Origin: Citrobacter sp. MGH106
GTDB taxonomy: Bacteria > Pseudomonadota > Gammaproteobacteria > Enterobacterales > Enterobacteriaceae
NCBI RefSeq assembly: GCF_001037495.1
Contig: NZ_KQ089822.1
Coordinates: 1,364,001-1,428,000, forward strand
Direction of reading: 5' to 3'
DNA length: 64,000 nt
Part shown: in pieces, positions 1-63,250 of the stretch
Numbering within the stretch: the first letter of the stretch is position 1
Layout: every line of letters begins with the position of its first letter
The notes under the pieces: model-generated
Database searches by the model: none
Seen by the model: the letters and a program-made list of their open reading frames with translations, nothing else
What the model was told of the DNA's origin: nothing
Position numbers and translations under genes: made by a program

Positions 1-96
1 CGCATTGTCATCATTTCATTACTGGTCTTTACCACCGCCTTCTTCGGTGCTGCTTTTGTGGCCCAGTTCATCCTGAACATCCAGGGCATTATCTGA
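1..96 (+). CDS. C-terminal end of an inner-membrane transporter (partial)
   Basis: The window opens inside a gene whose last 31 codons are read in frame 1 and stop at 94-96. The tail is strongly hydrophobic (TTAFFGAAFVAQFIL) and looks like the last membrane span of a permease. It ends 18 bp before an M20-family amidohydrolase on the same strand, so the pair is probably an operon for uptake and hydrolysis of an amide or peptide-like compound (inference). The transporter family cannot be fixed from 31 residues. Confidence 0.5.
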   Translation, partial: RIVIISLLVFTTAFFGAAFVAQFILNIQGII

Positions 97-114
97 TTAA
101 CAAGCGAGTAAATT

Positions 115-1254: not shown

Positions 1255-1283
1255 AGATCCCGGCAACCCACTAATATACTTAA

Positions 1284-1303
1284 GAGGCTACAATTGTGGC
1301 CTC
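1284..1303 (+). terminator. Palindromic hairpin after the amidohydrolase gene
   Basis: GAGGC and GCCTC arms flank the self-complementary core ACAATTGT, giving a near-perfect 20-nt palindrome 30 bp after the stop codon. The following ATTTCT is a weak U-tract, so termination is plausible rather than certain. Confidence 0.4.
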
Positions 1304-1363
1304 ATTTCTCAGTGAAAGTAACGCCGATTTTATTCTCAGAGAAAGCATAACCAGGGGTTTATG

Positions 1364-2422: not shown

Positions 2423-2698
2423 GATTTAAATTTCCAATTTATCTCTGGAAGTAAAACGACAGAACCAGTGGGAAACTTAAAAGCGAGTTGTTTTTAATCT
2501 CAAATGAATGAATGGAGATGTGAGACGTTGCGAATGTTATTTTTGACGTTCAGGGCGATAAATTTAGGTATTTCGCTTCTTTACTAAGTATCAAAGTGAG
2601 TTCGGTAGAACAGAACTGAGAGCCACTGAGCATTTTTCTAAGCCTGACGATGTACTATCAGACTAAGACGCATCATAAAATGTAAGGAAACTGCCAAA

Positions 2699-2905
2699 AT
2701 GTCAAAAACGCTCACCGCTGAAAAATTCGACAGTGCCAAAACTTTTACCGGGCTGGATTTCATCGCGCGTAGCCTGGTTATGATGGAATCAAACGGGACT
2801 CAATTGAGTCCCGAGGAAGTCGCCGGGAATATGACCGATGAACAAAAAGAAATTTTTCTGGCGCGTCTCGATTTTCACAGAAACAGGAATGCTAACAATA
2901 AGTGA
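2699..2905 (+). CDS. GlgS (ScoA)-like small regulatory protein
   Basis: A 68-residue acidic protein. Its middle (LDFIARSLVMMES near residue 19, then AGNMTDEQKEIFLARLDF) matches the pattern of E. coli GlgS/ScoA (DFLARSFARM, then GNMDEEHRTWFCARYAW). GlgS is a 66-residue, three-helix protein first tied to glycogen synthesis and later shown to lower motility, fimbriae and biofilm exopolysaccharide. The match covers most of both proteins, so the same fold is likely, but this is a paralogue outside the glgS locus and the function is inferred. An AAGGAAA ribosome site lies about 9 bp before the ATG. It is the last chromosomal gene before the thiM leader and the integrated element. Confidence 0.65.
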   Translation: MSKTLTAEKFDSAKTFTGLDFIARSLVMMESNGTQLSPEEVAGNMTDEQKEIFLARLDFHRNRNANNK

Positions 2906-2972
2906 TTATTAGGTGTTGATGTTTCTGCTGTTGGCTTGTATCAGATATAAAGATGGGATATCTGGCAAGGAC

Positions 2973-3001
2973 TTGCATCAGCAAACGACTTCCTCTACGC
3001 T
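2973..3001 (+). promoter_or_regulatory. Candidate native thiM promoter, now cut off from thiM
   Basis: TTGCAT (2973-2978) and TACGCT (2996-3001) are separated by 17 bp and sit 30 bp before the left TPP aptamer half. The same arrangement, with a diverged sequence, occurs at 14125-14153 before the right aptamer. The 34-bp blocks starting at 2972 and 14124 share 28 positions. The -10 match is modest, so the call rests mainly on this conservation. Confidence 0.45.
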
Positions 3002-3030
3002 GCCAGTGTTACAAAATTTCATGTGACAAC

Positions 3031-3103
3031 GACTCGGGGTGCCCTTCCTTGTGAAGGCTGAGAAATACCCGTACCACCTGATCTGGATAATGCCAGCGTA
3101 GGG
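3031..3103 (+). ncRNA. Truncated TPP riboswitch: native thiM leader split by the integrated element
   Basis: From GACTCGGGGTGCC to GCCAGCGTAGGG this is the THI-box aptamer and closely resembles the E. coli thiM leader, including a P3 helix made of CCTTC and GAAGG. The P1 closing strand (AGTC) that should follow is missing: at 3104 the sequence changes to GGCCGAAATTCGGCC and then to the integrase gene. P1 cannot form, so ligand-dependent switching is not expected. This copy is the 5' part of the original thiM leader, left behind when the element integrated. Confidence 0.85.
3056..3103. repeat. attL: left copy of the 48-bp core in the TPP aptamer 3' half
   Basis: Identical base for base to 14208-14255. 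It covers the 3' strand of P3, the L5/P4/P5 region and the end of J2/4 of the aptamer. Sequences diverge abruptly after it (GGCCGA here, AAGTCT on the right) and gradually before it. Confidence 0.9.
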
Positions 3104-3118
3104 GGCCGAAATTCGGCC
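3104..3118. repeat. Perfect short palindrome at the element's left edge
   Basis: GGCCGAA and TTCGGCC flank a single A directly after the attL core. There is no following U-tract. It could be a core-adjacent recombinase site or fold at the end of the truncated riboswitch transcript. Confidence 0.5.
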
Positions 3119-3165
3119 TACTTATCATGAGATTGACTCTCTTTTTGTCGGTGCGTAATGTACTT

Positions 3166-3199
3166 GAGGTACAAAAAGGGTGTATTCATGGGGTACAAA
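3166..3199 (+). promoter_or_regulatory. Left arm-type integrase sites, 12-bp period, overlapping the int start
   Basis: GAGGTACAAA at 3166-3175 and GGGGTACAAA at 3190-3199 are 24 bp apart, and a degenerate AGGGTGTATT sits at 3178, halfway. The same 12-bp array occurs at the right end (14062-14095). The last site covers codons 1-4 of the integrase gene, so bound integrase would be expected to block its own translation start or transcription. Confidence 0.6.
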
Positions 3200-4492
3200 A
3201 CTCTTCCATACACGTTTCAGCGAAACGGCAACTACTACCTTCAAATCCGGCTTTCAAATGGCAGGATGTATAAGAAATCCCTCCTCACTGACAGCTATCG
3301 TGAAGCATCTGCTTTGATGATTGGCGTTACGCCACACATTCCTTTTGTTAAATCATTTTCTACGCCGCTCCTCGTGTTCGAATCATTTTTGTCTAATCTG
3401 ATTGCGTCAGAACGCAAGGCTGTGAGAAATCCACTTTTGCCCCACCAGCAGATAGCTCCTCCTGTTGAAATCGTGGAATCTCAACCGCCAGCCGAACCGG
3501 AAAAAGTGCTAACCCTCTCGGATGCGTGGGCGATGTACAAAGACGAAAAGGGGCGAAACTGGACGAAATCGATCTCAATGGCAAATAAGCGCTACATGGA
3601 AGTGTTGCTAACTGTCTTGGGCGGAGAAACTAATGTCGCGGCTATCACCAAGCAAGACATTAAACAGGTGATGGAAGTTGTTGAGAACCTCCCTAAGCGA
3701 GTTGTACAGCCTTATCGCTCAATGACCATTCAGCAATTGATCGAATGTGACGATGTCCCGGCTGATGAACTGGTCGGGGTTGAAGCCATCCATAAACATC
3801 TAAAGCTCTACAAATCACTGTTCAAAACTTTTCTTACTGAAAGTAAAGACGTTTTGCTGAAGTCGCCAACTGATGGTGTAGTGGCTGCACCATCGAAAGC
3901 AAGATTTGGCGCATACAGTACAGCTGAGATGAAAAAGTTTGTAGGGTGGGCGCTTAAGCAGCCCGATAACTGGCAAAAATGGATCACGTTGTTATTGGCA
4001 TACACGGGAGCGAGAAGAGGCGAGATAGGAAAGCTGGAGAAGTCACAGATTAAATTTGACGAAGATAGCCAGCGTTACTATTTTCTGATTGCTGAAGGAG
4101 GGCAGGGGAAAACTGAGAACGCTACGAGACAGGTAGTCATCCATCCTAAGTTAATCGAATGGGGTTTCATGGATTACGTTGATCGCCAGTGGAAAGAGCG
4201 GATTTTTTCAGAAGTGGCAGGTACGAACATGACGAAGATCGGCAAAGTTTTAGCTGATGTTCGTGATCAGCTTGGAATTCCGTATCAGGATGACTACGGG
4301 CAGCGCCGTTTGGTGCATAGTTTCCGGCATACCATGATTTCAACCTGTTTATCTGGCTGGGTTGATAACTTAGCGCACTTGCAACAAGTGGTCGGTCACG
4401 AGAAAAGCGGAGCAGGGATCACACAGCGCTATCTGCACACATTCCCACTAAATTCAGTTTGTTACGTTATTGACGGACTGTGTTGGACGTAA
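3188..4492 (+). CDS. int: Tyrosine recombinase / integrase of the thiM-riboswitch element
   Basis: A 434-residue phage-type tyrosine integrase from this start. The N-terminal part (FQRNGNYYLQIRL) resembles the arm-binding domain of long integrases; the central part (LSDAWAMYKDEKGRNW) is the SAM-like core-binding domain. The catalytic domain shows the first arginine in YTGARRGEIGKL, then HSFRH (His and second Arg), a GH in VVGHEKSG and the nucleophile in TQRYLH. An in-frame ATG 30 bp upstream (3158) is possible, but AGGGTG precedes 3188 at suitable distance and the conserved start fits. It lies 84 bp inside attL and points inward, the usual position for an integrase. Its promoter may be its own or read-through from the truncated thiM leader. 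Confidence 0.93.
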   Translation: MGYKTLPYTFQRNGNYYLQIRLSNGRMYKKSLLTDSYREASALMIGVTPHIPFVKSFSTPLLVFESFLSNLIASERKAVRNPLLPHQQIAPPVEIVESQPPAEPEKVLTLSDAWAMYKDEKGRNWTKSISMANKRYMEVLLTVLGGETNVAAITKQDIKQVMEVVENLPKRVVQPYRSMTIQQLIECDDVPADELVGVEAIHKHLKLYKSLFKTFLTESKDVLLKSPTDGVVAAPSKARFGAYSTAEMKKFVGWALKQPDNWQKWITLLLAYTGARRGEIGKLEKSQIKFDEDSQRYYFLIAEGGQGKTENATRQVVIHPKLIEWGFMDYVDRQWKERIFSEVAGTNMTKIGKVLADVRDQLGIPYQDDYGQRRLVHSFRHTMISTCLSGWVDNLAHLQQVVGHEKSGAGITQRYLHTFPLNSVCYVIDGLCWT

Positions 4493-4613
4493 TACGGATT
4501 AATTTTCATCTATTTGTGATGGCGATCAAAAAGTCTTTAGGATTTGTCTTGAAAAGTGTAGTGATGGTATTCATATAGTTTTAATACTTACTTTGCTGAA
4601 GGAAAGAGGGGTT

Positions 4614-4877
4614 ATGGCTAAGTGTGAAGATGAACATCGTTACTGGGATTTCTTTGAACAACTGCCTGATGATCAAGGGGGAATTGGAAGACATAAGTGC
4701 TGTGGTTGTGCTTATGAAAGAGGATACCAAGCGGGAACAAGAAGAGATGAAACCCTTCATATTGATTTAGATTCCCTTCCAGAAAGCCAAGCAGGGAATG
4801 TTCGGCACAAGAGTCCCCATGCTGCCTATGCCCAAGGCTATCTTGACGGTATCTCATCGTCATATTGGAATAAGTAA
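4614..4877 (+). CDS. Small protein with an internal duplication, unknown function
   Basis: An 87-residue hydrophilic protein I do not recognise. It is built from two similar units: LPDD...RHKCCGCAYERGYQAG (about residues 20-45) and LPES...RHKSPHAAYAQGYLDG (about 56-80). Only the first unit keeps the cysteine cluster (CCGC), so a metal site could exist in one half. An upstream in-frame ATG at 4593 is possible, but GAGG sits at good distance from 4614. It is followed after 31 bp by the 317-residue gene on the same strand and preceded by the integrase, so the two form the element's first cargo cassette. Coding-like composition, no known domain. Confidence 0.6.
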   Translation: MAKCEDEHRYWDFFEQLPDDQGGIGRHKCCGCAYERGYQAGTRRDETLHIDLDSLPESQAGNVRHKSPHAAYAQGYLDGISSSYWNK

Positions 4878-4908
4878 CTATTAATGTGATATTTATCAAG
4901 GAGATGGG

Positions 4909-5862
4909 ATGGCAATTCGAAGAATCGCTTACGCATATTATGATTCCGATTGGATTAAAGGTGAGCATACGCTCCTTGCTCTCAAAAGAAATACCGTTGA
5001 GCCTTTGGCTTACTCGCTATATATGAAAGGATATCTTTTCTGCCCATCTTGCTATGAACATATAACCCGAGTACCTGCTGATCCCGATAAGGGGATGACT
5101 ACGAACGAAGTTCCTGCTTATTATAAACATCTTAAAGATGATAATGCGCCTTTCTGTAGCTTAAGATGTGGGCCCATTCAGTACAAACAATATTCATCTC
5201 AGGAAGATGCAAAAAAAGCAGTTGAAGACGAGGAGCTTATCGTCATAAGCGGTTTTCTTGAATCCCGTCCAGACAATAACCCCAGAATAGATTCTGAAAA
5301 TGACGAAATACCTATTGATTCGCATTTCGAGAGAAAAAATGGGAAAGAGGTTTCATTGCCCATTTCACGCCATAATGGCGAATCTTTCAAGGTTCCCAGT
5401 CAGGTAACAAGTGTGCAGTCCCTGTGCGTTAATTTTGATCACAATTATTATCGAGAGATCTACCTTGTTGGTGAGGACAGTAGAGCTAAGCGTTATAGGT
5501 TGTGTGACTCGTTAAAAGAAATCAACGATATAGAAGAGGGTTGCACAGAGTCATCATTCTACTTTGGTGAGTTTTGGAAGATTCAAAGGTTTTCAGGTCA
5601 CAGTAATGTCTGGCTGAAGATCAAACAAGGAGCATCATTTAAAGATTTCAGAATAAGAATAACTAACGATACTGCTGATGGAAGAGGATTTTTCAATGAA
5701 AAAAACCTTGGTCGGATAGTCCTTTTTTACAGCCAGGTTGATGAGGTTGGGATGGGATATATGACTCCTCAGCTTGGATGGGGGGAAGTTGCTCTATTAC
5801 CCGCTAAATATGATGAATTCCTAATTAAAGATTATATGCTATCGCATCGCATTGAGCAGTAG
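4909..5862 (+). CDS. Uncharacterised 317-residue protein with N-terminal zinc-ribbon-like cysteines
   Basis: The first third carries FCPSCY near residue 44 and FCSLRC near residue 82, a spacing that fits a zinc ribbon or treble-clef knuckle like those at the front of CoiA-like nucleases, although no nuclease motif follows. The remaining 200 residues are mixed charged and aromatic sequence with no membrane span or signal peptide. An AAGGAG ribosome site precedes the ATG. Expressed with the 87-residue gene just upstream. Genes next to an integrase are often cargo such as anti-phage genes, but nothing here proves that. Codon use is AT-rich compared with the flanking chromosome. Confidence 0.6.
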   Translation: MAIRRIAYAYYDSDWIKGEHTLLALKRNTVEPLAYSLYMKGYLFCPSCYEHITRVPADPDKGMTTNEVPAYYKHLKDDNAPFCSLRCGPIQYKQYSSQEDAKKAVEDEELIVISGFLESRPDNNPRIDSENDEIPIDSHFERKNGKEVSLPISRHNGESFKVPSQVTSVQSLCVNFDHNYYREIYLVGEDSRAKRYRLCDSLKEINDIEEGCTESSFYFGEFWKIQRFSGHSNVWLKIKQGASFKDFRIRITNDTADGRGFFNEKNLGRIVLFYSQVDEVGMGYMTPQLGWGEVALLPAKYDEFLIKDYMLSHRIEQ

Positions 5863-5952
5863 TTTTTGACTATTTACGATTGAATCTCACAAATTTGTGA
5901 ACTCTGTTCAGAGAGTTGTTTTTAAGCACAAAGCTGACCGATAAGCCAGCTT

Positions 5953-6029
5953 TGTATCCCATTTCATTAGGCACCGGAAGCGGTGGAATGCGGGTTGTAG
6001 CCCACAATGTATCCCATCGTGTATCCCAT
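5953..6029 (-). repeat. Orphan array of ATGGGATACA arm-type sites: relic of a second integrase attachment end
   Basis: On the minus strand ATGGGATACA occurs at 6020-6029, 6008-6017 and 5953-5962, with a degenerate GTGGGCTACA at 5996-6005. The three at 5996, 6008 and 6020 have a 12-bp period, the same layout as the GGGGTACA arrays at the element's ends but with a different base at the fifth position. No integrase gene lies beside it. It fits the arm region of another integrative element that was captured and then lost its integrase. Confidence 0.5.
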
Positions 6030-6326
6030 TTGAAGTGAGGTGACCAGCTATAACTGATTTTCATACTGCCCAAAGCTACTTGATAAACTCCAGCAAAAAG
6101 TTACGATTCTCGCGTGTCGTCCAAGTACTGGAACGAACCGAACAGAAGGACCTTTTTGTGCTAGGAGCAGACCTTTCAACAAGCTATATAGGAGCTGAAC
6201 AATCCTCATTGCTCCACGCTTTGGGCTTGTAAATTACCATTCCTAAAAGTTACATGATAAGTTCTATAATGTTTAGCAGCGGTGATTAACATAGTTGTTT
6301 TAAGTTAAGTTAACTTCCTACAGGGT

Positions 6327-6792
6327 ATGGGAGTTTTTGATGTTACAATAACTGGCCTGTGAGTTTTTTATCGAGTTTTCACGATATGAATATTGCTTCA
6401 AGGCATGTGGGATTTTAATCAATGGAGGCTATTTAAAAGCTGACTGGAATGGATATTCCGTTCAGGAGCGTGACGTTATCGAAAACCCGTCTACCCCTAA
6501 ACTTAACGAAGCGATTCATTACTTTGAAGAGCATCCCCCTAAAAAACAGATTTACGATGAAAAGGGGAGCATGTGGTTAGAAAAACTACCGAGTTTCCGG
6601 CACCGGGCTGAACTGATTTTACTGCTGGTCTGTTGAGTAAGAAACAATTTCTTTCACGGCGGAAAATTCAATGGTAATTGGTTTGAACCGGAACGCAGTG
6701 AGCAGCTAATCCGGCACGCCCTTACCATCCTACGGGCCTGTGCGGAGAAACTCACCGGAGTGAAAGAAACCTATGAGAACAAACACTTCTGA
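6327..6792 (+). pseudogene. Broken HEPN-like gene (frameshift and internal stop)
   Basis: Translation starting at the ATG at 6327 gives about 11 residues and meets a stop; shifting frame near 6357 opens a long frame (EFFIEFSRYEYCFKACG, then ADWNGYS). This frame is cut by TGA at 6634-6636 and continues in the same frame to 6792. Immediately after the stop comes VRNNFFHGGKF, the R-x-N/x-x-H style motif of HEPN-domain proteins, placed before a C-terminal helix (LIRHALTILRACAEKL). A single C-to-T change would turn CGA into this TGA. The parent looks like a roughly 150-residue single-domain HEPN protein, a fold used by RNases in defence and toxin-antitoxin systems. Two lesions make it a pseudogene unless sequencing errors explain both. 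Confidence 0.55.
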
Positions 6793-6898
6793 GCCGGGTC
6801 ACTGCTACAACCCAGCCCATAACGGCAACTCTGACAGGATGATTAAAGGTTACCAGTGCATTAAAAGAAATCGATAAAGCAGTCGGTTTTATGTCTAT

Positions 6899-6945
6899 GG
6901 GGAGCAGGTCAAGACGAAGCTAGCTCGGCTCCCCGTGATTTTTAT
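6899..6945 (+). terminator. Rho-independent terminator after the HEPN-like pseudogene
   Basis: GGGGAGC (6899-6905) pairs with GCTCCCC (6928-6934) across a 22-nt loop, followed by a T-rich stretch. It could serve the plus-strand pseudogene; the minus-strand gene that ends at 6971 lies just beyond it. Confidence 0.45.
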
Positions 6946-6970
6946 TTACTCACCACGGAGGCATTAGGCA

Positions 6971-7696
6971 CTATTGCCTTTTTTTCAGGTCATCAAGAAT
7001 GCTCTGCTTTTCGGCAACCAACATTTTGTACACATCATCATCACCTGTAAGATTAAATTTGAAATGCGATCGTCCCACAGATATACCGGATACGCCTTCA
7101 ATCCACATATCCTTGGCTAATTTTTCATCTGAGTCATCTAGGGCATTTTCAGAAATCTTATCAAGGGATGAGAGGATATCCCCATGCAACTGTAACAATT
7201 TTTTATATGTGATTGATGGCGAATTATTCTTTCTCAGAGAGATCAAGCTTAGATCATTAATCTGCGCGTTAACGCGATCAATAATACCAAAAACTCCTAA
7301 GCGAGCCTCAACTGACTTGCGCTCAGATTTATGTTTTGCGCCTGTTTGAAATAACAGCTCGGAGTTAATATACGAACCTAGATCATGTGCATCTTTCACC
7401 ATGGTTCTAACACCCTCACTAAAGTGTGGGTATCCGATAACTAGCCCCCCCAGTAGTGGGATGATTTTACCGTAAGCGGTGATTTTCGCGATGATTGAGC
7501 CTTCAGAGAACTCAACTGTTATCTCTACCTCACTTCCAATAAAAAAAGGTATTCGGCTCTTCGCAAAGGCAGTTATTTGCTTCTCAATCTCATTGATTCT
7601 TAGTTTCTTATCTTGAGGGGTCGCTTTTTTTAACCACTCAGGATTAACATGAACATACGATTGAGAAATGATATTCCCTGATACATAGTTTGCCAT
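6971..7696 (-). CDS. Uncharacterised 241-residue protein with a central hydrophobic segment
   Basis: I do not recognise this protein. Residues 1-55 are charged; residues about 65-100 contain an amphipathic to hydrophobic stretch (AYGKIIPLLGGLVIG) that is too short and glycine-rich for confident membrane insertion; the rest is helical and charged with an LDKISENALDDSDEKLAKD segment. There is no signal peptide and no clear catalytic motif. GGAGTAGGA precedes the ATG, a good ribosome site. It stands alone between the HEPN-like pseudogene and the WYL-like gene, on the minus strand. Given that company, an accessory or defence role is possible but is inference only. Confidence 0.6.
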   Translation of the reverse strand: MANYVSGNIISQSYVHVNPEWLKKATPQDKKLRINEIEKQITAFAKSRIPFFIGSEVEITVEFSEGSIIAKITAYGKIIPLLGGLVIGYPHFSEGVRTMVKDAHDLGSYINSELLFQTGAKHKSERKSVEARLGVFGIIDRVNAQINDLSLISLRKNNSPSITYKKLLQLHGDILSSLDKISENALDDSDEKLAKDMWIEGVSGISVGRSHFKFNLTGDDDVYKMLVAEKQSILDDLKKRQ

Positions 7697-7861
7697 TCCT
7701 ACTCCATTAACAAGTTACCTTAGCCACCTAGTAATCCCCCCCAATTTCAGGAGATATCGATATCATTCGTAACGATGATCTAAGGGATTGAATTGAACAT
7801 AGCATTTCACTGTGGGGTTAAAAAACCCGCCAGAACGTGGCTCTATTTTCATCTGAAGCTT

Positions 7862-8182
7862 TTAACTGTACTGGCCCCAGTTTCTGGCAATTACCCAGTT
7901 TGGACGCCAGGAAACAAAAGAAGCAGGGTCAAAAACTTCCCCAACATCGTTCATCCATTCGATACGTTCGGCTCTCAATGGCAGAGTGTGCCTGGCTTTG
8001 TCACTATCAAAATCCCAAACCCAGTAGCGAGGGATCCCATCATGTATTCGTTTCCCAACAGCATAATCCATTGGAGCACATACTCGTTCGATATAACGGT
8101 CATCTTCCTCGGAGTAGAATCGGATTCTCAGTTTCTTTTTCGTGTGTATTGCATCAATAAAAACCTCATGCTGAATATGCAT
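7862..8182 (-). CDS. Small WYL-domain-like protein
   Basis: A 106-residue protein that resembles an isolated WYL-type ligand-sensing fold: an N-terminal basic strand (KKKLRIRFYSEEDD), a middle segment ending RYWVWDFDSD, then HTLPLRAERIEWM, the usual closing strand of WYL domains where sites of regulators report on bound ligand. No DNA-binding domain is attached. Two in-frame ATGs are available; the one at 8182 is better spaced from AAGGAA than the one at 8188. Small solitary WYL-like proteins are common on islands. It could be a regulator subunit that works with a partner or an accessory to defence genes (inference). Confidence 0.55.
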   Translation of the reverse strand: MHIQHEVFIDAIHTKKKLRIRFYSEEDDRYIERVCAPMDYAVGKRIHDGIPRYWVWDFDSDKARHTLPLRAERIEWMNDVGEVFDPASFVSWRPNWVIARNWGQYS

Positions 8183-8390
8183 AGTCATTTCCTTGTACTT
8201 TGTTCAAGAGGTACAACCATCGAAAAAATACAGCACACAAATCTGTTTTACCATAACATTCCTATTATGAATCGGCAGAAGCCAGCTCCGCAAGCCTCTT
8301 GAGCGTAAAGCGGGGATCTGCCGAGCAATATTCCATGACGCCTAACCAGACGATTTTTCGTTTGTCGACGCCCTGATGGTAAACTGATAA

Positions 8391-8588
8391 CGAAGTCTCG
8401 GAGCGCAGACGAGAAGTACGGTGTTGCGAGCACCTAAAGCGCCTCTTAATAGTCGTTCAAAACGTATTTCAGACAGCAGTGGTATGCGGCTCATAAGGAC
8501 TGAAAAGAAAGAGTATGCCAGTGGTCTACTGGATTCCGAACTCTGGGAAATCACCCGTGACGAATGGAATACTCGTCAGGTTGGTTGA
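8391..8588 (+). other. Open frame fragment, possibly the C-terminal remnant of a lost gene
   Basis: The stretch 8189-8762 holds no convincing complete gene. The frame 8391-8588 reads protein-like near its end (MRLIRTEKKEYASGLLD, ELWEITRDEWNTRQVG) but has no good start or ribosome site. It may be the tail of a gene whose 5' part was deleted. I do not recognise the family. Confidence 0.25.
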
Positions 8589-8762
8589 TTAAGTTATGGA
8601 ATGTCTGTTCTTCGCTCATAGCTGCCTGTCACTCAGCTTTATGTACCCTCAATTTTACCGGATATGATCAGGTAGCGACCAGCACTCAGTGGCGCGGATG
8701 GAGGCGGTGTTAAGCCCGGATTTTTGGTGTCCCCTATTCCGCACTGGCAAGAGTCTCAAATA

Positions 8763-9320
8763 TCAGGGTGTTTTTAGTCGGTAAAAGGAAGCTTTGCTAA
8801 TACCTAACTGATCCTGCACTGCTGCTGGTGACAATCCTTGCGCTAATAATTCATCCACCTGTTCTGTGGTTGCCTTGTTAGGTCTGCCGCAATGCTTGCC
8901 TTCCGATTGAGCACGTTTGATACCTGCTGTTCTACGCTCTGCTATCAGGTCTTTCTCCAGGCTGGCAAGTCCTGCCATCATAGTTAGCATCGCTTTACCA
9001 ACTGGCGTTGACAGGTCGAATCCCTCTCGCAAGCTGACAACTTTCACGCCCTTCATCTGCAACATTTCAACTATGGACAGTACATCAATCGTGTTACGAC
9101 CAAGGCGGTCTATAGCAATCACGATCAGCGTGTCACCTTCACGAACGTAATCGAGTAGCTCACCGAATCCTGGACGTTCTGCGGCTTTAACTGCTCCGCT
9201 CACAGCTTCATCACTGAACCAACGAGTAACACAGTACCCAGCATCATTGATTTGTTGTTTCTGGTTTTCAACGGTTTGCTCGCTGGTGGACACTCGTACA
9301 TATCCGATCACTGTGGTCAT
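8763..9320 (-). CDS. Serine recombinase (resolvase/invertase family)
   Basis: A 185-residue small serine recombinase of the Tn3-resolvase/Gin-invertase type. The N-terminal catalytic domain shows GYVRVSTSEQT with the nucleophilic serine, then DRLGRNTIDVL and the long E-helix segment (MLTMMAGLASLEKDLIAERR); the C-terminal 45 residues are a helix-turn-helix (LSPAAVQDQLGISKASFYRL). Full family length, so likely active. No transposase, res site or pair of inverted crossover sites is apparent nearby, so it may act on sites elsewhere in the element or genome, or be a leftover from a transposon. The ribosome site is weak (AGAGAA). Confidence 0.9.
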   Translation of the reverse strand: MTTVIGYVRVSTSEQTVENQKQQINDAGYCVTRWFSDEAVSGAVKAAERPGFGELLDYVREGDTLIVIAIDRLGRNTIDVLSIVEMLQMKGVKVVSLREGFDLSTPVGKAMLTMMAGLASLEKDLIAERRTAGIKRAQSEGKHCGRPNKATTEQVDELLAQGLSPAAVQDQLGISKASFYRLKTP

Positions 9321-9535
9321 GTCGTTCTCTTAGTCTTAAAAGGTAGTATTAAAACAATAGCAGTCTTAAAAATTGGAATCAATCTTTTGAGACAAGATGA
9401 AGCCGCATTCTGTTGTTGTGTTGGTGTGGTCTTATAAGGAGATGGTTTTGAGACTTGAAACGAGGAGTTGAATTCGTTTTGACGAGCGAAGATGAAAATG
9501 GCGTGATCACACACGCCAGTCGTTGCATGAGATGA

Positions 9536-9850
9536 TTATTCTTTGAAGAACTGTGTGGCTGACCATCCACCATGACCACCTGGGGTAATGAAGAAAACAA
9601 ACCCCTTATCGTCTACGTTCTGAATCTCAACTGTCATCGATTCTTTTAGGAGACGGCATTTACCGGAAGTGATGAGGCCCATCATACCCTGTTGGTCTTT
9701 GTCCTGGATGTAACTGATCATCTCGTAAAAGTCGGTCAGCTTCTTACAGTTAAATGTTCCTTCTTTTAGGGTGGCGGTATCTCCATGACTCAATGCATAA
9801 GCGTTCGGTATCACTGACAAAAATATGGCGGCTGCGAATAGTTTTTTCAT
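9536..9850 (-). CDS. Small exported protein, unknown function
   Basis: A 104-residue protein starting with a clear signal peptide (KKLFAAAIFLSVIPNAYA, cleavage near residue 19). The mature part has two cysteines (FNCKKL and GKCRLL) that could form a periplasmic disulfide, and ends in a glycine-rich segment (TPGGHGGWSATQFF). AAGGGGC precedes the ATG. It starts 9 bp after the stop of another small exported protein, so the two are co-transcribed. I do not recognise the family. Confidence 0.65.
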   Translation of the reverse strand: MKKLFAAAIFLSVIPNAYALSHGDTATLKEGTFNCKKLTDFYEMISYIQDKDQQGMMGLITSGKCRLLKESMTVEIQNVDDKGFVFFITPGGHGGWSATQFFKE

Positions 9851-9859
9851 TACCGCCCC

Positions 9860-10207
9860 TTATAGCTCAGAGCATTCGCTGAGGTTGTAAGTGCCTTTTC
9901 TACCGTCATCATTAACCAGATGCAGAACAAAAATGAGCGGGTTGCCGTCAATGAAAGACACGGCGACACTGCCGTTGTCGGTGCTATAGAGCTTGGCAAT
10001 TTGCTTCTCCCCGATGTACGAGAGATCCCAGCTTGCGTTATTTAAACTGAAGTGCATCTGAGAACCATCAATTTCAATGCTGGATTGTGCTGTGACTGTC
10101 TTCCCATTGCTACCCAGTTGCCCTTGCTGAAGAGCTTCACATTGATAGGAGCTTGCATAAGTTGACAGAGGCAGCAGTAAGAGTGCAGCAAGAGTTATCC
10201 CCTTCAT
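9860..10207 (-). CDS. Small exported protein, unknown function
   Basis: A 115-residue protein from the start at 10207, which has an AAGGAA ribosome site; longer in-frame starts up to 10291 would bury the signal peptide and lack such a site. The signal peptide is KGITLAALLLLPLSTYA with cleavage near residue 18. The mature part is predicted beta-rich (SIEIDGSQMHFSLNNASW, GSVAVSFIDG) with cysteines at its start and end (YQCEAL, LSECSEL) that could pair. It heads a two-gene operon with the next exported protein and is divergent from a third at 10397; all three are likely controlled from the shared region with the 16-bp palindrome. Confidence 0.65.
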   Translation of the reverse strand: MKGITLAALLLLPLSTYASSYQCEALQQGQLGSNGKTVTAQSSIEIDGSQMHFSLNNASWDLSYIGEKQIAKLYSTDNGSVAVSFIDGNPLIFVLHLVNDDGRKGTYNLSECSEL

Positions 10208-10290
10208 AGCGTTCCTTTTTTCGATTGGTGTTAGACATTCATCGGGAATCAGTATAAAACCATCAATTGATAAAAACGATCGGTTTATCA

Positions 10291-10306
10291 TTTATCGATC
10301 GATAAA
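10291..10306. promoter_or_regulatory. 16-bp perfect palindrome in the divergent promoter region of the exported-protein genes
   Basis: TTTATCGATCGATAAA reads the same on both strands and lies between the divergent starts at 10207 and 10397. A TATAAT hexamer follows at 10325-10330 on the plus strand, without a good -35 at the right distance. The layout suggests an operator for a dimeric regulator; which one is unknown. Confidence 0.4.
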
Positions 10307-10396
10307 ATTGATCAATGTTGAAACTATAATGTCTTGCACAGTTCTTCGCTATGGATGAGTCTTGATAGACGAAAGAGCATGCACAGGAGAAATGCA

Positions 10397-10603
10397 GTGA
10401 GAAGAGCACTGATAGTGATATTTGGGTTACTGGTTTCACAGATGGCAGCAGCAGGACAGATCACAATGACCGATCCCCAGCAGGATACGACCGAGAATGG
10501 TAAGACGCTTTGCACCTACGAAAACAGCATCTATCTGTTCACCTACGTTACCAAAGGAAAATGCCCGTATGCGAAGACGTTTGATACTGTAGATTCAGAG
10601 TGA
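10397..10603 (+). CDS. Small exported protein, unknown function
   Basis: A 68-residue protein from the GTG at 10397, chosen because AGGAG lies 7 bp before it; an in-frame ATG at 10379 has no such site. The signal peptide (RRALIVIFGLLVSQMAAA) is followed by a 48-residue mature part with two cysteines (TLCTYENS and KGKCPYAK), so one disulfide is likely in the periplasm. It is divergent from the two-gene exported-protein operon. I do not recognise it; the trio may act together at the envelope. Confidence 0.6.
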   Translation: MRRALIVIFGLLVSQMAAAGQITMTDPQQDTTENGKTLCTYENSIYLFTYVTKGKCPYAKTFDTVDSE

Positions 10604-11367
10604 AGGGGGCTTAAAATATAGGTTTGTTTAAATTTCCAAGTTAGGTGGAGTTGCTTAGCAAAAGAATCATGTTTTTTTCTTCGATTGTGCTGAAACCCTT
10701 ATAGAATAAGGGGTGGAGGGATTTTCATCACTAGGTTAAAGCGCTGTAAGAGTGTTATAGACTGGTTAATATGAGTAGAATTAGCATAGATTAAACCTAT
10801 TAATAATCATCATTTATTAGTTGATTATCGCTTGTAATTTAGTCAACTTTTCCGGCTCTATGGAGAGTTGTTTCATGGTGAGCACTGCGACCATGAAAAG
10901 TATGCTGCATGAGTAGCATGTAATGCGGAGCATGAAAGATATCAATTACAGGAGAGCAACCTTTGCACCAGAAGCGATTTTAAGGAGTGATTCTCCTGTA
11001 AAAGTAATCTGCTATGCTCGCATTGCTCACATAATGAACATTAAAACCAACAAAACCGCTAACTACTGTTTAAATAATAAACAGTTATTGATTCCATTTT
11101 ATGTGCTCGTACAACTCGCCCATGCGTTAACTGTGCAAGATACGCTTAAAAAAATGAGTTTATGCAACCACTCCACACCGATAGTGTTCCATTGTAAGCC
11201 TTCACTTTTACCGAAGATGCAAATAACTCTAAAGAGACTTTAGACTTTTCTGCACCCTCTGTATCAGGTTACTTGTGCAAATGGCATAGCCATAAGATCG
11301 GCTTACTTGCATAATAAGCCGGAAATCTCATTGCTAACATTATCGGAGCTGCCGCCGCGTTAGCGAC
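10604..11367. other. AT-rich gap of 764 bp without a convincing gene
   Basis: The only longish frame (10923-11243, plus) lacks a good ribosome site and has a biased, tRNA-like mixture of residues, so I do not call it. The region holds two adjacent hairpins at 10871-10920, a CTGTTTA/TAAACAG inverted repeat at 11066-11084 and a run of short repeats. It could contain an RNA gene or a transfer or replication origin. Confidence 0.4.
10871..10920. other. Two adjacent hairpins
   Basis: TTTCATGGT (10871-10879) pairs perfectly with ACCATGAAA (10890-10898) around a 10-nt loop, and ATGCT/AGCAT form a second small hairpin 3 bp later. There is no U-tract after them. Candidates are a structured RNA, a protein-binding site or an origin-like element. 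Confidence 0.35.
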
Positions 11368-11871
11368 TTAATGGAGCAGGCGAGCGCCTCTTAACGCATC
11401 CATCGTTAGGGTAGTCGGCTGGGCGTAAGTAATGGAGCTACATAATGAAACGATGGTTTCAATGTCCTGGATGGTGATCTGATAGGTTCCAGTGCCGGGG
11501 TTGCCAATGTCCCGACAGATTATCCAGCCCGCATTTTCCAGATCGCCAATGACGGTAATCACTCGTTTTTGCGTCATACCGAGGTCACGGGCCGCACAAC
11601 TTAGGTCGAACATCACACATCCGGCTATCTCGCTCTGTTGGCTTCTGAGGTATGCCCACATCTGTTTATGATCGGTGGTGAAAGTCAGCACCTTGGGGTG
11701 TCTGCTGCGTTTCTGTGGATGCGTTACTTCGGTGAAATACGGCACGAGACTATCAAACATCTGTTCGATGGTGTTCGTTACTTGCGTTGGGGTAGTGCTG
11801 GAGTGGGTGGTAAATGTCTCTGTGAAGAGTGCTTCAACTTCGGTTGGGGAAAGTCCCTGGTTATCTGTCAT
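11368..11871 (-). CDS. Winged-helix DNA-binding protein, probable element regulator
   Basis: A 167-residue protein. Residues about 75-140 fit a winged helix (KQMWAYLRSQQSE, LSCAARDLGMTQKRVITVIGDLENAGWI, then a GTGTYQI wing), as in MarR-like or plasmid replication regulators. The N-terminal 60 residues are Thr- and Ser-rich and less ordered. GGAGGATTAAT precedes the ATG, a strong ribosome site. It is transcribed away from the replication-like operon at 12131, with a 259-bp shared upstream region containing that operon's strong promoter, so it may repress it (inference). Confidence 0.65.
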   Translation of the reverse strand: MTDNQGLSPTEVEALFTETFTTHSSTTPTQVTNTIEQMFDSLVPYFTEVTHPQKRSRHPKVLTFTTDHKQMWAYLRSQQSEIAGCVMFDLSCAARDLGMTQKRVITVIGDLENAGWIICRDIGNPGTGTYQITIQDIETIVSLCSSITYAQPTTLTMDALRGARLLH

Positions 11872-12061
11872 ATTAATCCTCCTGTATGTTTTGTAGTCAA
11901 TAAATCCTCATAGTTGAGTTGTTAACGTTCATTTTTTATTTGCTTGTTTTTTTAAAAAGAAGCGTTCAAATAAAGGTTGGCAAAACTAACATTTATTTAT
12001 GTTAAATGCAATCTCAAATCGTGCTTGTTTTATTAACGTGTTGAAAATGATCATAAAATAG

Positions 12062-12090
12062 TTGACTTTGCAACCGATTTGATGTACAAT
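12062..12090 (+). promoter_or_regulatory. Strong sigma-70 promoter of the replication-like operon
   Basis: TTGACT (12062-12067), 17-bp spacer, TACAAT (12085-12090): near-consensus on both hexamers. It is followed by GTTAACAATCGTTATAA, a possible operator, and by AAGGAGG before the first gene. Confidence 0.75.
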
Positions 12091-12130
12091 AAATAGTAGG
12101 TAGTTAACAATCGTTATAATAAGGAGGTAC

Positions 12131-12337
12131 ATGTACCAAACGAAAACTGATGTGCTCGAAGCTCTGCGTAGCGGAAAGCTCCTTCCCAAGATTTGCCAGC
12201 AATACTCCCACAACAAAAATCTCTCCGACGAACGACGCAAGATGTTCAGGGTGGCCTTGATCAGCTACCGCATTGAGCAGCTTCAAGAGAGTTTACGTAA
12301 CGAGGAACAACCGAATGAACATCCGATTCACCGATGA
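12131..12337 (+). CDS. Small helical protein, first gene of the replication-like operon
   Basis: A 68-residue basic, helical protein (TDVLEALRSGKLLPKICQQY, then RRKMFRVALISYRIEQLQESLR) that I do not recognise. A consensus AGGAGG lies only 3 bp before the ATG, tight but the sole candidate. Its 3' end overlaps the start of the ribbon-helix-helix gene by 23 bp, so the two are translationally coupled. Likely a regulator or accessory factor of the module. Confidence 0.6.
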   Translation: MYQTKTDVLEALRSGKLLPKICQQYSHNKNLSDERRKMFRVALISYRIEQLQESLRNEEQPNEHPIHR

Positions 12338-12473
12338 AACCCACAAGGCGCTTGTTGAACGTGCCAACCGTGAAGACAAGTCAGCCGCTGCGCTGGTGAG
12401 TGAATTAATAACAGCAGTCCTAAACCGAGAGGAACCGAATGACCGAAAAGAAACCAGTAGTAAACTTCGTTAA
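12315..12473 (+). CDS. Ribbon-helix-helix (Arc/CopG-like) protein
   Basis: A 52-residue protein from the start at 12315, which has GAGG at fair distance; an earlier in-frame ATG at 12273 would overlap the previous gene more. The sequence MNIRFTDETHKALVERANREDKSAAALVSELI is a typical ribbon (strand) followed by two helices, the dimeric DNA-binding fold of plasmid copy-number and partition regulators. It overlaps the next gene by 35 bp. Location before a helicase-like gene suggests control of that gene or of element copy number (inference). Confidence 0.7.
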   Translation: MNIRFTDETHKALVERANREDKSAAALVSELITAVLNREEPNDRKETSSKLR

Positions 12474-13899
12474 TGCGATTTGCGGCTCAGGAAAAAGCCA
12501 CCGTCTGAAAGAGTACATCCTGAGCTTCAAGAACGAAGCTGTCCCAGAAAAGTTCTTAATCGTAGTACCAACCCACGCTTTAGCCGATCAGTTCAAGCAA
12601 GATCTGAATCATTTTAGAATCTCAAACCATCACATTTTCGTTGAAGGGGCGACTCTCAACCTGAAAAGTACTTTGGCTGATAGCTTCCAGATAAATGTTG
12701 TGATAACAACCCATGAATGTTTCACCAACTACTGCCACCTCGCTACGTTCAATCTTGAGATGCGTTCTCTACTGGCAGAACACAATGTGGTGATTGACGA
12801 GATCCCTGATGGCTGGTTTGGAGCAGAAGCAACGATCCGTCATGCTGACAGGACGGCAGAAAACTTCCCATTCCTGGAATGGCTGGAAGAACGAAACGGG
12901 CTTCTGTACCTGCGCGAAGAGCACTACGACAATCTGTACAAGTATTACCACGAGAAGCACGCTAACAGTGATAACTTGAAGAAGGTTCTTTACGTGGCGC
13001 TCGACGGTTGTGGTGTGATGCACACCGAATGTGATTCGTCATACAGCTTCTTTGCCTACACCTATAATCCGATACTGAAGGCCGCAACATGGGCGAAGAG
13101 CTTCACTGTGCTCGGCGCTGGCGTGAATCGCAGTGGGTTTGTCTGGATGGCAGAGAACGTCGCTCAGATGGCGGTTCAGGAAGCGGGTGAACACCTTCAG
13201 CCTGATCCCGAGAGACGCAAACATAAAAACGTGCCTATCAAAATCGTTGCTGTCCTCTCAGAAGATATCAAAAGAGCGGGGCAGTCAGAACTCGCTAATA
13301 TCTTTAACAACCACTTGAGGGAAATACGCCAAATCGTCGGAAAGGATTTTATCTTTGCAACCAACAACGACAAAGCTATCTGCGATTTTAAGACCATTGG
13401 ACTCACTGAACTTGGTGATCGCATGGGTGGTGTTGACGTTTCAATGTCCAGCTACGGGATAAACAGCTATCAGAGCATTCATTGTGCCGTGTTCCTCGGA
13501 TGTGCAAATCTGGGCGATAAAGACCGTAAGCGATGGGCAGACTATTGCGAACGTATCGGTTGGGATTTTGAAACGGTGATGGAGAAGAAGCGGCAGGCAA
13601 TGTATTTTGAACGGTGCTACCAGTTTCTTAGCCGAACATCCATTCGCAACACTGATACCGATCACCCTCTCGTGTTTGTCGTTCCCGACATGGCGGCAGC
13701 GGAATACCTCAAAAACCATTACTTCCCTGGCTCAACCATCGAATGCCTTGGAATCAAGAAAGCTGGAAAGCAGCATGAAACGCGTTTGAAGGTTCTGGAA
13801 TACAAGGCGCAAGGACTAACTCAGAAAAAGGCTGCGGAAGAAATGGCGGTGTCTCTGAGGACGGTAGCAACCTACTGGAACCAGGACACTCGCGTATGA
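12439..13899 (+). CDS. Helicase-like P-loop protein with C-terminal HTH, probable replication protein
   Basis: A 486-residue protein. The Walker A motif is CGSGKS at residues 15-20 and a Walker B-like VVIDEI lies near residue 119, with VPTHALADQF (motif Ia-like) between and a possible second RecA-like half ending in LVFVVPDMAAAEYL, so it resembles a superfamily 2 helicase. The last 35 residues (YKAQGLTQKKAAEEMAVSLRTVATYW) form a helix-turn-helix that could bind an origin. It is the third gene of a tightly overlapping operon with a small basic protein and a ribbon-helix-helix protein, an arrangement like plasmid replication control. A role in replicating the excised circle is likely but not shown. 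GAGGAACCG precedes the ATG. Confidence 0.7.
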   Translation: MTEKKPVVNFVNAICGSGKSHRLKEYILSFKNEAVPEKFLIVVPTHALADQFKQDLNHFRISNHHIFVEGATLNLKSTLADSFQINVVITTHECFTNYCHLATFNLEMRSLLAEHNVVIDEIPDGWFGAEATIRHADRTAENFPFLEWLEERNGLLYLREEHYDNLYKYYHEKHANSDNLKKVLYVALDGCGVMHTECDSSYSFFAYTYNPILKAATWAKSFTVLGAGVNRSGFVWMAENVAQMAVQEAGEHLQPDPERRKHKNVPIKIVAVLSEDIKRAGQSELANIFNNHLREIRQIVGKDFIFATNNDKAICDFKTIGLTELGDRMGGVDVSMSSYGINSYQSIHCAVFLGCANLGDKDRKRWADYCERIGWDFETVMEKKRQAMYFERCYQFLSRTSIRNTDTDHPLVFVVPDMAAAEYLKNHYFPGSTIECLGIKKAGKQHETRLKVLEYKAQGLTQKKAAEEMAVSLRTVATYWNQDTRV

Positions 13900-14006
13900 T
13901 CACCGCGCTTTACTGGTATGTGCTGTTCCTGTTTATCTGGGGTGTAATCCGCACCTTTGAACGACGTAGAAAAACAGAACGCAAAACTGAATCTCGGAAT
14001 CCATGA
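13896..14006 (+). CDS. Small single-span membrane protein
   Basis: A 36-residue frame that starts in an ATGA overlap with the helicase-like gene's stop. Residues 4-19 (ALYWYVLFLFIWGVIR) form one hydrophobic span, followed by a very basic tail (FERRRKTERKTESR). Translational coupling and the terminator 20 bp downstream support expression. Function unknown; small hydrophobic-basic peptides of this kind include toxins and membrane tethers. Confidence 0.5.
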   Translation: MITALYWYVLFLFIWGVIRTFERRRKTERKTESRNP

Positions 14007-14024
14007 GATCTTGGGTTATGTCAC

Positions 14025-14050
14025 AAAGGAGCTTAACGGCTCCTTTTTTT
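14025..14050 (+). terminator. Rho-independent terminator of the replication-like operon
   Basis: AGGAGC and GCTCCT pair around TTAACG and are followed by seven T residues. It isolates the operon from the thiM leader. Confidence 0.85.
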
Positions 14051-14061
14051 GTTTCTGTGGT

Positions 14062-14095
14062 GGGGTACAAACTGAGGTACAAGCTGGGGTACAGC
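14062..14095 (+). promoter_or_regulatory. Right arm-type integrase sites, three repeats with a 12-bp period
   Basis: GGGGTACAAA (14062), GAGGTACAAG (14074) and GGGGTACAGC (14086) are exact 12-bp steps in the same orientation. They mirror the sites overlapping the integrase start at the left end and mark the right arm of the element. Confidence 0.7.
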
Positions 14096-14124
14096 GTGAA
14101 GAAGCGATAACCGGAAGGGCGGGC

Positions 14125-14153
14125 TTGCTTCAGCAAGCAACTTCCCCTAAGCT
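14125..14153 (+). promoter_or_regulatory. Candidate thiM promoter supplied by the element
   Basis: TTGCTT (14125-14130), 17-bp spacer, TAAGCT (14148-14153), 29 bp before the aptamer. It is the diverged counterpart of 2973-3001. Since the operon upstream ends at a terminator, thiM expression after integration would depend on this promoter. Confidence 0.45.
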
Positions 14154-14182
14154 GGCAAAAAGTATAGAGATTCAATTTTCAT

Positions 14183-14304
14183 GACTCGGGGTGCCCCATC
14201 GCTGATGGGCTGAGAAATACCCGTACCACCTGATCTGGATAATGCCAGCGTAGGGAAGTCTGACACTGCTCGTGTCCCTTCTTCGCGCGGGCAGGAGCTG
14301 AACC
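14183..14304 (+). ncRNA. TPP riboswitch (THI box) controlling thiM, hybrid of element and host halves
   Basis: The aptamer runs from GACTCGGGG (14183) to GGGAAGTC (14260) with P1 closed by GACT and AGTC. P3 is CCCATC with GATGGG, fully paired but different from the native CCTTC/GAAGG at the left copy. The conserved CTGAGAAATACCC and ACCTGATCTGGATAATGCCAGCGTAGGG elements are intact. An expression platform follows and the thiM ribosome site AGGAG is at 14293-14297, 7 bp before the ATG. In E. coli thiM, bound thiamin pyrophosphate hides the ribosome site. The part before 14208 comes with the element; the part after 14255 is host. Confidence 0.93.
14208..14255. repeat. attR: right copy of the 48-bp core
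   Basis: Identical to 3056-3103. Downstream (AAGTCTGACACTG) is the host thiM leader and completes P1; upstream is element sequence. Confidence 0.9.
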
Positions 14305-15093
14305 ATGCAGCCTGACCTGCACAGCCGCACGCTCGCGGCTCATACCCTTCACCAATTTAGAACACTTTCCCCGCTCACACATTGTATGACCAATGAGGTC
14401 GTACAGAGTTTTACTGCCAATACATTACTGGCTTTAGGTGCGTCGCCTGCAATGGTGATTGAACCGGAAGAAGCGAGCCAGTTTGCAACTATCGCCAGTG
14501 CGTTACTGATTAATGTAGGTACTCTCACTCAACGTCGCGCCACAGCAATGCGTGCTGCAGCCGAGCGGGCGCATCTTGCTAAAACCCCCTGGACTCTCGA
14601 TCCCGTTGCCGTGGGTGTTCTGGACTATCGTCGTTATTTTTGTCTGGATTTACTGACGCTTCGGCCTGCCGCAATTCGCGGTAATGCCTCGGAAATACTT
14701 GCCCTCGCGGGGATGAACAGCGGTGGGCGAGGGGTGGATACCACCGATACGGCAGTCGCAGCACTTCCGGCGGCACAGGCGCTGGCGCGCCAGGCTGGAA
14801 CTATTGTTGTGGTCACCGGGGAAGTGGATTACGTCACCGATGGCCAGCGCACCGTCAGCGTGAGCGGAGGTGATCCGCTGATGACGCGTGTGGTTGGTAC
14901 TGGATGTGCTCTGTCGGCGGTGGTAGCAGCCAGTTGCGCACTGCATGGTGATCGGCTTGATAACGTGGCTTCCGCCTGTAGCTGGATGAAGCAGGCTGGA
15001 AAAATAGCCTCTGAACAAGCAACCGGACCGGGAAGTTTTATCCCGGCATTTCTCGATGCCCTCTATAACCTGGAAATGCAGGAGCAAGCATGA
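14305..15093 (+). CDS. thiM: Hydroxyethylthiazole kinase
   Basis: A 262-residue cytoplasmic kinase, the E. coli length, that phosphorylates 4-methyl-5-(2-hydroxyethyl)thiazole to salvage the thiazole part of thiamin. Family signs are the thiazole-binding [21 protein letters not shown] segment and [14 protein letters not shown], the ATP-site loop with the catalytic cysteine region, near residue 195. It overlaps thiD by 4 bp (ATGA), so the two are translated together. Expression is controlled by the TPP riboswitch directly upstream, now a hybrid created by the integrated element. Confidence 0.98.
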
Positions 15094-49668: not shown

Positions 49669-49754
49669 AAAAAATAAGCCTGCGTAAGGGAGATTACGCA
49701 GGCTAAGGAGGTGGTTCCTGGTACAGCTAGCATTTATGGGTTATGTTTTTCAGC
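49669..49754 (-). ncRNA. cyaR: CyaR (RyeE) Hfq-dependent small RNA
   Basis: An 86-nt segment that matches E. coli CyaR: GCTGAAAAACATAACCC at the 5' end, the target-pairing ACCAGGAACCACCTCC region, and a terminator hairpin made of AGCCTGCGTAA and TTACGCAGGCT ending in TTATTTTTT. CyaR represses ompX, luxS, nadE and others. A TATTAT -10 lies at 49763-49768, and TGTGA-N6-TCTAA at 49789-49804 is a CRP site centred near -42. It is downstream of trhP in the same orientation, as in K-12. Confidence 0.92.
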
Positions 49755-49839
49755 GAAACAGATAATACCCTTAATGAACGAAACGGTATGTGATCGGTTT
49801 CTAAGAATCTTCCGAACGCCGAAAAATATCCATAATTAA

Positions 49840-63195: not shown

Positions 63196-63250
63196 AATAA
63201 GCCACAGTAGTGATGATGTCAATACGCGTGCTTTTCAGCCTGCGAGCCAC

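Follow-up and report, generated by a model that had tools for sequence, protein, structure and literature searches.

We analysed 64,000 nucleotides of the Citrobacter sp. MGH106 genome (contig NZ_KQ089822.1, positions 1,364,001 to 1,428,000), a stretch that we call the window, in which an element of 11.15 kb stands in front of the host gene thiM. An earlier sequence-only reading had proposed that this element uses the thiamine pyrophosphate (TPP) riboswitch of thiM as its attachment (att) site. A direct repeat of 48 bp without mismatch bounds the element (3056-3103 and 14208-14255), and both copies lie inside TPP aptamers called by Rfam on the plus strand (RF00059, gathering score 54.3 bits), one at 3025-3120 with 61.9 bits and the other at 14177-14273 with 71.7 bits. 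A chance origin of the exact repeat is far too improbable, and the same arrangement recurs in many other genomes. A tyrosine integrase gene follows the left repeat; its in-frame ATG at 3188 lies 84 bp past the repeat, and the longest open reading frame (ORF) begins at an alternative ATG at 3158. Both the repeat in the thiM aptamer and the integrase at this distance had been noted in the sequence-only reading and were confirmed here, the integrase by Pfam and PHROG matches. That reading also expected a whole aptamer at one end and half of one at the other; instead, both ends of the window element hold a complete aptamer, because the element brings its own 5' half, which forms 14177-14207 of the right copy. 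The P3 hairpin in this half reads CCCCATC/GATGGG, as opposed to CCCTTC/GAAGG in the left copy. The features of the two ends are:

3025..3120, plus strand: predicted left TPP aptamer (Rfam, 61.9 bits), with its 5' part from the left flank, a shared core and a 3' end from the element
3056..3103, plus strand: left 48-bp core (attL), exact repeat
3103..3119, plus strand: hairpin directly 3' of the left core, which folds in the window and several relatives
3166..3197, plus strand: two RGGTACA repeats (3166, 3190), candidate integrase arm sites from a pattern search
3188..4492, plus strand: tyrosine integrase (Pfam Phage_integrase, E 2.6e-6; PHROG integrase, 2.3e-26)
14025..14046, plus strand: terminator-like hairpin ahead of the right end (one found by the scan, 0.3 expected in shuffles)
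14062..14093, plus strand: three RGGTACA repeats 12 bp apart (14062, 14074, 14086), candidate arm sites from a pattern search
14125..14153, plus strand: candidate element-borne promoter TTGCTT-17-TAAGCT, with similar sequence at many element right ends
14177..14273, plus strand: right TPP aptamer before thiM (Rfam, 71.7 bits), element-borne at 14177-14207 and host sequence after 14255
14208..14255, plus strand: right 48-bp core (attR), exact repeat
14305..15093, plus strand: thiM, the host gene behind the rebuilt riboswitch (Pfam HK, E 4.4e-99)

Five of the seven RGGTACA matches within 3056-14255 lie near the ends and two are interior (8208, 12124), a placement at both ends that fits what integrase arm sites would show and makes these repeats candidates for that role. 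Many elements share a CTTGC..GCAAGC.ACTTCCCCTAA.CTGGCA-like sequence 5' of the right aptamer, which may be a promoter. Elements in other genomes, cited below by locus labels (L001 and so on), differ at the left end: past the shared ...GCCAGCGTAG, type I elements mostly continue with GGGGCC and type II elements with TC(C/T)TGG or TCTGG, and other continuations occur in L027, L032, L067, L075, L079 and L082-L085. The hairpin directly 3' of the left core carries a paired G/C to A/T change in L001; it is absent in L004, L027, L067-L069 and type II, and was dropped as a candidate for a conserved regulator. There are no tRNA or tmRNA genes in the window, and thus no att site of that kind. Elsewhere, the genome carries two further TPP aptamers with a differing core (L008, L009), and it has one copy of this integrase.

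Empty sites and the point of exchange

E. coli K-12 has a single aptamer at the thiM site, equal to the left half and the right half of the occupied sites joined. The K-12 sequence through the core is that of the left copy in occupied E. coli loci (L002-L005, for example), the 5' part of the left aptamer in E. coli relatives being that of the empty K-12 site, and after the core it is that of their right copy. When a 551-bp K-12 query was searched against 5426 E. coli genomes, 4689 of them had an intact thiM site, with at least 80% of the query covered at a single location, and some match was found in 5373. Within the genus of the window, a query made of the joined flanks matched all 17 genomes, the window included, and the other 16 each carry one uninterrupted aptamer before thiM, with varying sequence upstream. 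The empty site that had been predicted is present, then, in K-12 and in these 16 congeners. The proposal stood to fail if element-free relatives kept both aptamers; a single aptamer was seen instead, in E. coli and in the genus alike. We regard the site and its empty form as demonstrated by these comparisons.

Upstream DNA was inspected in eight of the 16 congeners. Three of them (L061, L064, L065) have the gene rcnB some 330-450 bp ahead of the thiM match, and four (L058, L060, L062, L063) have it 1.8-5.0 kb ahead; in L059 it was not found within 10 kb upstream of the thiM match. About 5.7 kb separate rcnB and the left aptamer in the window, and this suggests that the left flank is itself accessory. 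The interval between rcnB and the thiM aptamer is highly variable among congeners, with 1.8-5.7 kb extra in several (window 1-3055; L040-L055; L058-L063). Considered as possible debris of the element family, the ORFs of this extra DNA gave no blastp match to element proteins at E 1e-6.

Differences between the two aptamer copies indicate where the exchange took place. The right copy departs from K-12 within GTAYY in four E. coli loci (L001, L037, L066, L071), and the left copy has the K-12 letters there. Two bases further on, the left copy of L001 has a T that is foreign to K-12 and the right copy has the K-12 C; the left copy of L015 contains a GGGGG run further 3' that is missing from the right copy. 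The simplest reading places the exchange between GTAYY and AYCTG (approximately GTAYY^AYCTG), a part of the conserved core that precedes the P5 hairpin, and we consider this zone well established by the alignments. It had been argued beforehand that a riboswitch offers an integrase both conserved sequence and dyad structure. As regards dyad structure, the argument proved only partly right, since the exchange maps 5' of the P5 hairpin.

Integrase relatives and their attachment sites

The window integrase is 83-89% identical to five E. coli relatives, and the R, H-x-x-R, H and Y positions, which make up the tyrosine recombinase motif, are invariant across the six aligned integrases. Among records of known phages, 3 of 50,697 matched the integrase, and did so weakly (29.5-41.8% identity over 17-35% of the integrase); among solved structures, none matched our alignment A1 at E 0.001.

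The least selected test of the link between integrase and aptamer was a sample of 392 genomes of the family, with an integrase threshold of E<=1e-120. The integrase occurs in 16 of these genomes, one being the window and five apparently being shared with the loci of the species scan described below, and a TPP aptamer (pattern with at most 4 substitutions) lies upstream on the same strand in all 16. The aptamer GTAG is 85-88 bp from the first residue of the integrase in 13 of the 16 and 105 in L082; distances extrapolated from partial matches are 136 in L081 and 466 in L084. Two short peptide patterns, applied to a collection of 84,980 species, gave 15 loci in Lelliottia, Enterobacter, Silvania, Atlantibacter, Erwinia, Cedecea, Pseudenterobacter, Pantoea, Franconibacter and Mangrovibacter. 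Thirteen of these have the aptamer at the same distance before the integrase. The two exceptions are fragments of the integrase, spanning query residues 95-433 in L025 and 189-324 in L029, and have an aptamer at the far end only. A sample of the order (394 genomes) yielded seven integrase matches at E<=1e-60. Three of these, one in the window and two also present in the family sample, are full-length and have the aptamer. In the four distant integrases the match begins only at about residue 80-100 (E 1e-72 to 1e-85), and no TPP aptamer lies within about 1.5 kb on either side of them; likewise, neither the TPP pattern nor a tRNA was found in the surrounding DNA inspected (L033-L036). These results indicate that integrase and TPP aptamer go together throughout the clade and no further, and within the clade as sampled we take the exclusive use of this site to be demonstrated. 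The distant integrases L033-L036 have long reading frames, of 562-576 codons.

Integrase-like DNA was found in 221 of the 5426 E. coli genomes, 174 of them at 80% coverage or more, and left-junction queries for the two subtypes reached 80% coverage in 189 and 36 genomes; the integrase total and the junction totals (189 + 36) are close, as compared in sum only. A very short element is seen in L085 (166-2955, minus strand), with the integrase and about 1.3 kb between two TPP aptamers.

Direct repeats on their own would also fit a thiM leader that homologous recombination had duplicated in tandem, the copies being separated by unrelated DNA and no site-specific insertion having taken place. Such an origin is already contradicted by an integrase clade at the same spacing in many genera, by the common empty sites, and by a repeat that stops sharply at element-specific ends with candidate arm sites, and we hold it to be exceedingly improbable. 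The window element has a recombinase beside one att site, terminal direct repeats and an empty site in relatives, as is the case for a site-specific tyrosine-integrase element. The idea of a riboswitch att site, advanced in the sequence-only reading, is supported in that homologues of the integrase were found at TPP aptamers in the family sample and the species scan, rather than consistently beside some other site.

Rebuilt and residual aptamers

Both ends were read in 21 elements, comprising the window, 11 type I and three type II elements of E. coli, and L015, L016, L018, L019, L022 and L028. The right end rebuilds an aptamer before the thiM leader in every one of them; that is, the element carries the displaced part of its target, and the target is complete. 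Apart from L016, where the sequence read stops too early, every one of these loci has thiM itself, either annotated or found with Pfam or tblastn. P3 of the right copy is self-complementary in all 21, as TTC/GAA in 16 and as CATC/GATG in five, with no mixtures. Rfam scores of the right copies in nine complete elements (window, L015, L016, L018, L019, L022, L028, L037, L085) range from 71.7 to 77.7 bits, similar to those of four empty sites (71.1-73.6 bits). As a feature of the sequence, the rebuilt aptamer can be considered established.

The left copies are weaker. Thirteen of the 25 scanned reach the gathering score, with 54.9-67.8 bits, and 12 fall below it (L015, L021-L024, L026, L028, L037, L075, L077, L079, L080); the right copy outscores the left wherever both were scanned, and the 3' P1 strand of the left copies is poor in type I and missing in type II. 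In the NCBI annotation, 11 E. coli type I loci and L071 have both riboswitches marked, and L037 and L072 have the right one only. A candidate rule that no left aptamer of type II is called by Rfam was ruled out by L031 (type II), which reaches 54.9 bits.

It is conceivable that the left aptamer serves the element. The integrase would then be transcribed through a TPP aptamer, from a promoter in the flank when integrated and from the element leader in the circle, and thiamine status would control integration or excision. Consistent with this, every full-length integrase lies 3' of the left aptamer and in the same orientation, 13 of the left copies do pass the gathering score, all 11 type I loci of E. 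coli as well as L071 have an annotated left riboswitch, and a hairpin formed by the integrase start region of type I leaders covers a Shine-Dalgarno-like AAAAAGGG. However, the 12 left copies under the gathering score, the condition of their 3' P1 strand and the higher scores of the right copies speak against control by TPP, and the position of the integrase is explained by the att site alone. Control of the integrase by thiamine thus appears unlikely to us; good right aptamers beside poor left ones favour repair of the host gene instead.

The same aptamer is also the site of a second, dissimilar integrase. E. coli VG35A2 (L014, 12230-23590) and SMS-3-5 (L038, 500-15863) carry islands with capsid genes in the thiM aptamer, with a 14-bp common core AGAAATACCCGTAT, and the SMS-3-5 island additionally has portal, protease, primase and terminase genes. 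We assume that these islands are akin to phage-inducible chromosomal islands (PICIs) or capsid-forming PICIs. Compared with the window integrase, the L014 integrase showed no significant BLASTP similarity (E 0.29), and the type II integrase of L037 was 69% identical. Of 5426 E. coli genomes, 75 matched the L014 left junction with a coverage of 80% or more. Neither of the two copies read, L014 and L038, brings in an aptamer 5' half, and Rfam calls no aptamer in either, so that thiM, judging from these sequences, should lose TPP control there.

The persistence of these unrebuilt islands implies that rebuilding is not needed for an island to persist. It also lends support to a second alternative, in which the aptamer is a mere conserved DNA target, and the thi leader at attP was picked up from former hosts with no selection for repair. 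Host and element leaders are alike in several genomes, as passive exchange would give. On the other hand, all 21 element-borne halves keep a complementary P3 despite the existence of two stem versions, none of them mixed, and the right copies score like native aptamers, whereas the left copies do not. Rebuilding as a mere by-product is, in our estimation, unlikely.

We conclude, with a probability of roughly 0.9, that the element in the window is an integrative island, that its tyrosine integrase takes the conserved core of the thiM TPP aptamer for an att site, and that the aptamer is rebuilt before thiM. Sequence comparison shows that insertion splits the aptamer near GTAYY^AYCTG, in an exchange presumably performed by the integrase. 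The left-flank leader and 5' half remain in front of the integrase gene, and the right end of the element supplies a second leader together with a 5' half that comprises the 5' strands of P1 and P2 and all of P3, whereby a complete aptamer stands before thiM again. The right leader may hold a working promoter, and the rebuilt riboswitch may still respond to TPP; this response could be why insertion is tolerated, with selection for repair. With every insertion the thiM riboswitch receives a different leader and 5' half, a swap that can become permanent when the remaining element is lost.

Several observations weigh against this interpretation. PICI-like islands occupy the same site without riboswitch rebuilding in the two copies read. 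The left aptamer of L084 is about 470 bp from the integrase, L025 and L029 are without a left aptamer, and the left flank of the window is accessory DNA that was not seen beside thiM in congeners. A consensus scan found no sigma-70-like promoter at either element end, the candidate at 14125-14153 included. The right-end 5' half carries K-12 letters in L004, L067 and L069, and the start of the element-borne part is accordingly uncertain in these three. The E. coli elements, finally, were picked for diversity from lists of similarity to this region, and not randomly.

A broader proposal is that the thiM TPP aptamer could be a landing pad in Enterobacterales for at least two dissimilar integrase families, that the restoring family would shuffle leaders and halves across strains and species, and that it might couple its mobility to thiamine through the aptamer before the integrase. 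Taken as a whole, we find this doubtful.

Cargo, leader exchange and known systems

The genes inside the window element, other than the integrase, are:

4614..8188, no single strand: cargo slot with ORFs 4614-4877 (plus), 4909-5862 (plus), 6971-7696 (minus) and 7862-8188 (minus), without an assigned family
8763..9320, minus strand: serine resolvase/invertase (Pfam Resolvase, 1.3e-42)
9536..10291, minus strand: two small ORFs (9536-9850, 9860-10291) in PHROGs without assigned function, with relatives in L003 and others
11368..11871, minus strand: ORF common to L001 and L002 (59-60% identity)
12439..13899, plus strand: DEAD/ResIII-type helicase with a C-terminal helix-turn-helix (Pfam ResIII, 1e-6; DEAD, 3.4e-6), 90-95% in L001 and L002

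Exchangeable cargo sits between the integrase and the resolvase, whose copies are 89-91% identical in L001, L003, L005 and L016, and in relatives it often consists of anti-phage genes. The slot after the integrase in E. coli relatives holds HamA/HamB (Hachiman), TIR-STAND, SIR2, AIPR/AbiU-like, AAA/NsnB-like and Old-like proteins; PADLOC matches at 1e-5 were obtained for eight of ten cargo proteins chosen from relatives, the two without a match being the L069 GmrSD protein and an ORF of L066. The four slot ORFs of the window gave no Pfam family above the cut-off and no PADLOC match, and that they might be defence genes is a guess from their position. ORF 4909-5862 shares 95% identity with an L004 ORF, and ORF 6971-7696 matched a PHROG without assigned function. 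A match of ORF 4614-4877 to ribosome modulation factor was below threshold and was set aside. No capsid, packaging or PICI-type replication genes were found among ten window ORFs scanned with Pfam or eight with PHROGs, and no relaxase or type IV secretion genes among the ten scanned with Pfam; oriT was not searched for. The type II relatives L037 (300-13915) and L071 (15540-28805), 13-14 kb long, have genes for a capsid protein E-like and a tape-measure-like protein, and their annotation includes no terminase and no portal; they are possibly satellites that alter the particles of a helper. Outside the element, the minus strand of the window encodes CyaR and a Sib-type RNA (49672-49756 and 63077-63222), both called by Rfam and ordinary enterobacterial RNAs.

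Leader exchange can be followed in E. coli. In L012 (NADC 5570/86-24/6564), an O157:H7-type strain, the integrase end has been lost, a remnant island lies between rcnR and thiM (9840-12100), and thiM keeps a leader like that of the L004 right end; similar matches came from O157:H7 strains. With a 231-bp query for the L012-type leader, 496 of the 5426 E. coli genomes reached a coverage of 80%, full L004-type elements included. Strain TB06052 (L066, 13704-25106) has the same remnant followed by a second element inside the element-type aptamer, and it therefore seems that a rebuilt riboswitch has been a target again.

If our interpretation is correct, metabolite riboswitches join the conserved RNA sequences targeted by integrases, target restoration included, and the control region of thiM in E. 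coli is predicted to be modular and repeatedly replaced. A clean natural contrast would exist between riboswitch-rebuilding islands and those that leave it unrepaired. The findings would also mark thiM as an entry site for defence genes, and they suggest that other riboswitches are worth examining as att sites.

We found no account of a riboswitch att site in the open-licence PMC literature, with island databases, supplements and subscription papers lying outside the search, and the searched text of PMC10121019, PMC8824198, PMC5644110 and PMC12884075 describes none. The defence islands of E. coli, as far as the main text of PMC10121019 covers them, share with the thiM elements an integrated state and exchangeable anti-phage cargo; they differ in that thiM, rcnR, thiD, yohL and riboswitch are absent from that main text, supplements being outside the search. 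The dusA-specific integrases insert in the 5' end of dusA (PMC4482086) and resemble the thiM integrases in that one family uses one conserved site near a gene 5' end in many bacteria; their target is coding sequence, whereas that of the thiM elements is an RNA leader. PICIs are islands of similar size, and two PICI-like islands use the same aptamer in E. coli; they differ in that the L014 integrase is dissimilar to that of the window by BLASTP and in that the aptamer was not rebuilt in the two copies read.

Mageeney et al. reportedly described, in 2020, islands and prophages that enter and restore tRNA/tmRNA genes or gene ends. The thiM elements share with islands of this kind a terminal tyrosine integrase, a direct repeat of a conserved target and an element-carried part that completes the target. 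Restoration of tRNA/tmRNA genes or gene ends by the islands and prophages that enter them is also described in PMC12884075. Here, in contrast, the target is a metabolite riboswitch, and the part supplied is a 5' half with its leader, not the 3' end of a gene; unlike tRNA and gene-end islands, the thiM element also exchanges the leader. As far as sequence can define it, the thiM element is a target-restoring integrative element with a riboswitch as its target, and represents the riboswitch counterpart of the elements that restore tRNA and coding genes.

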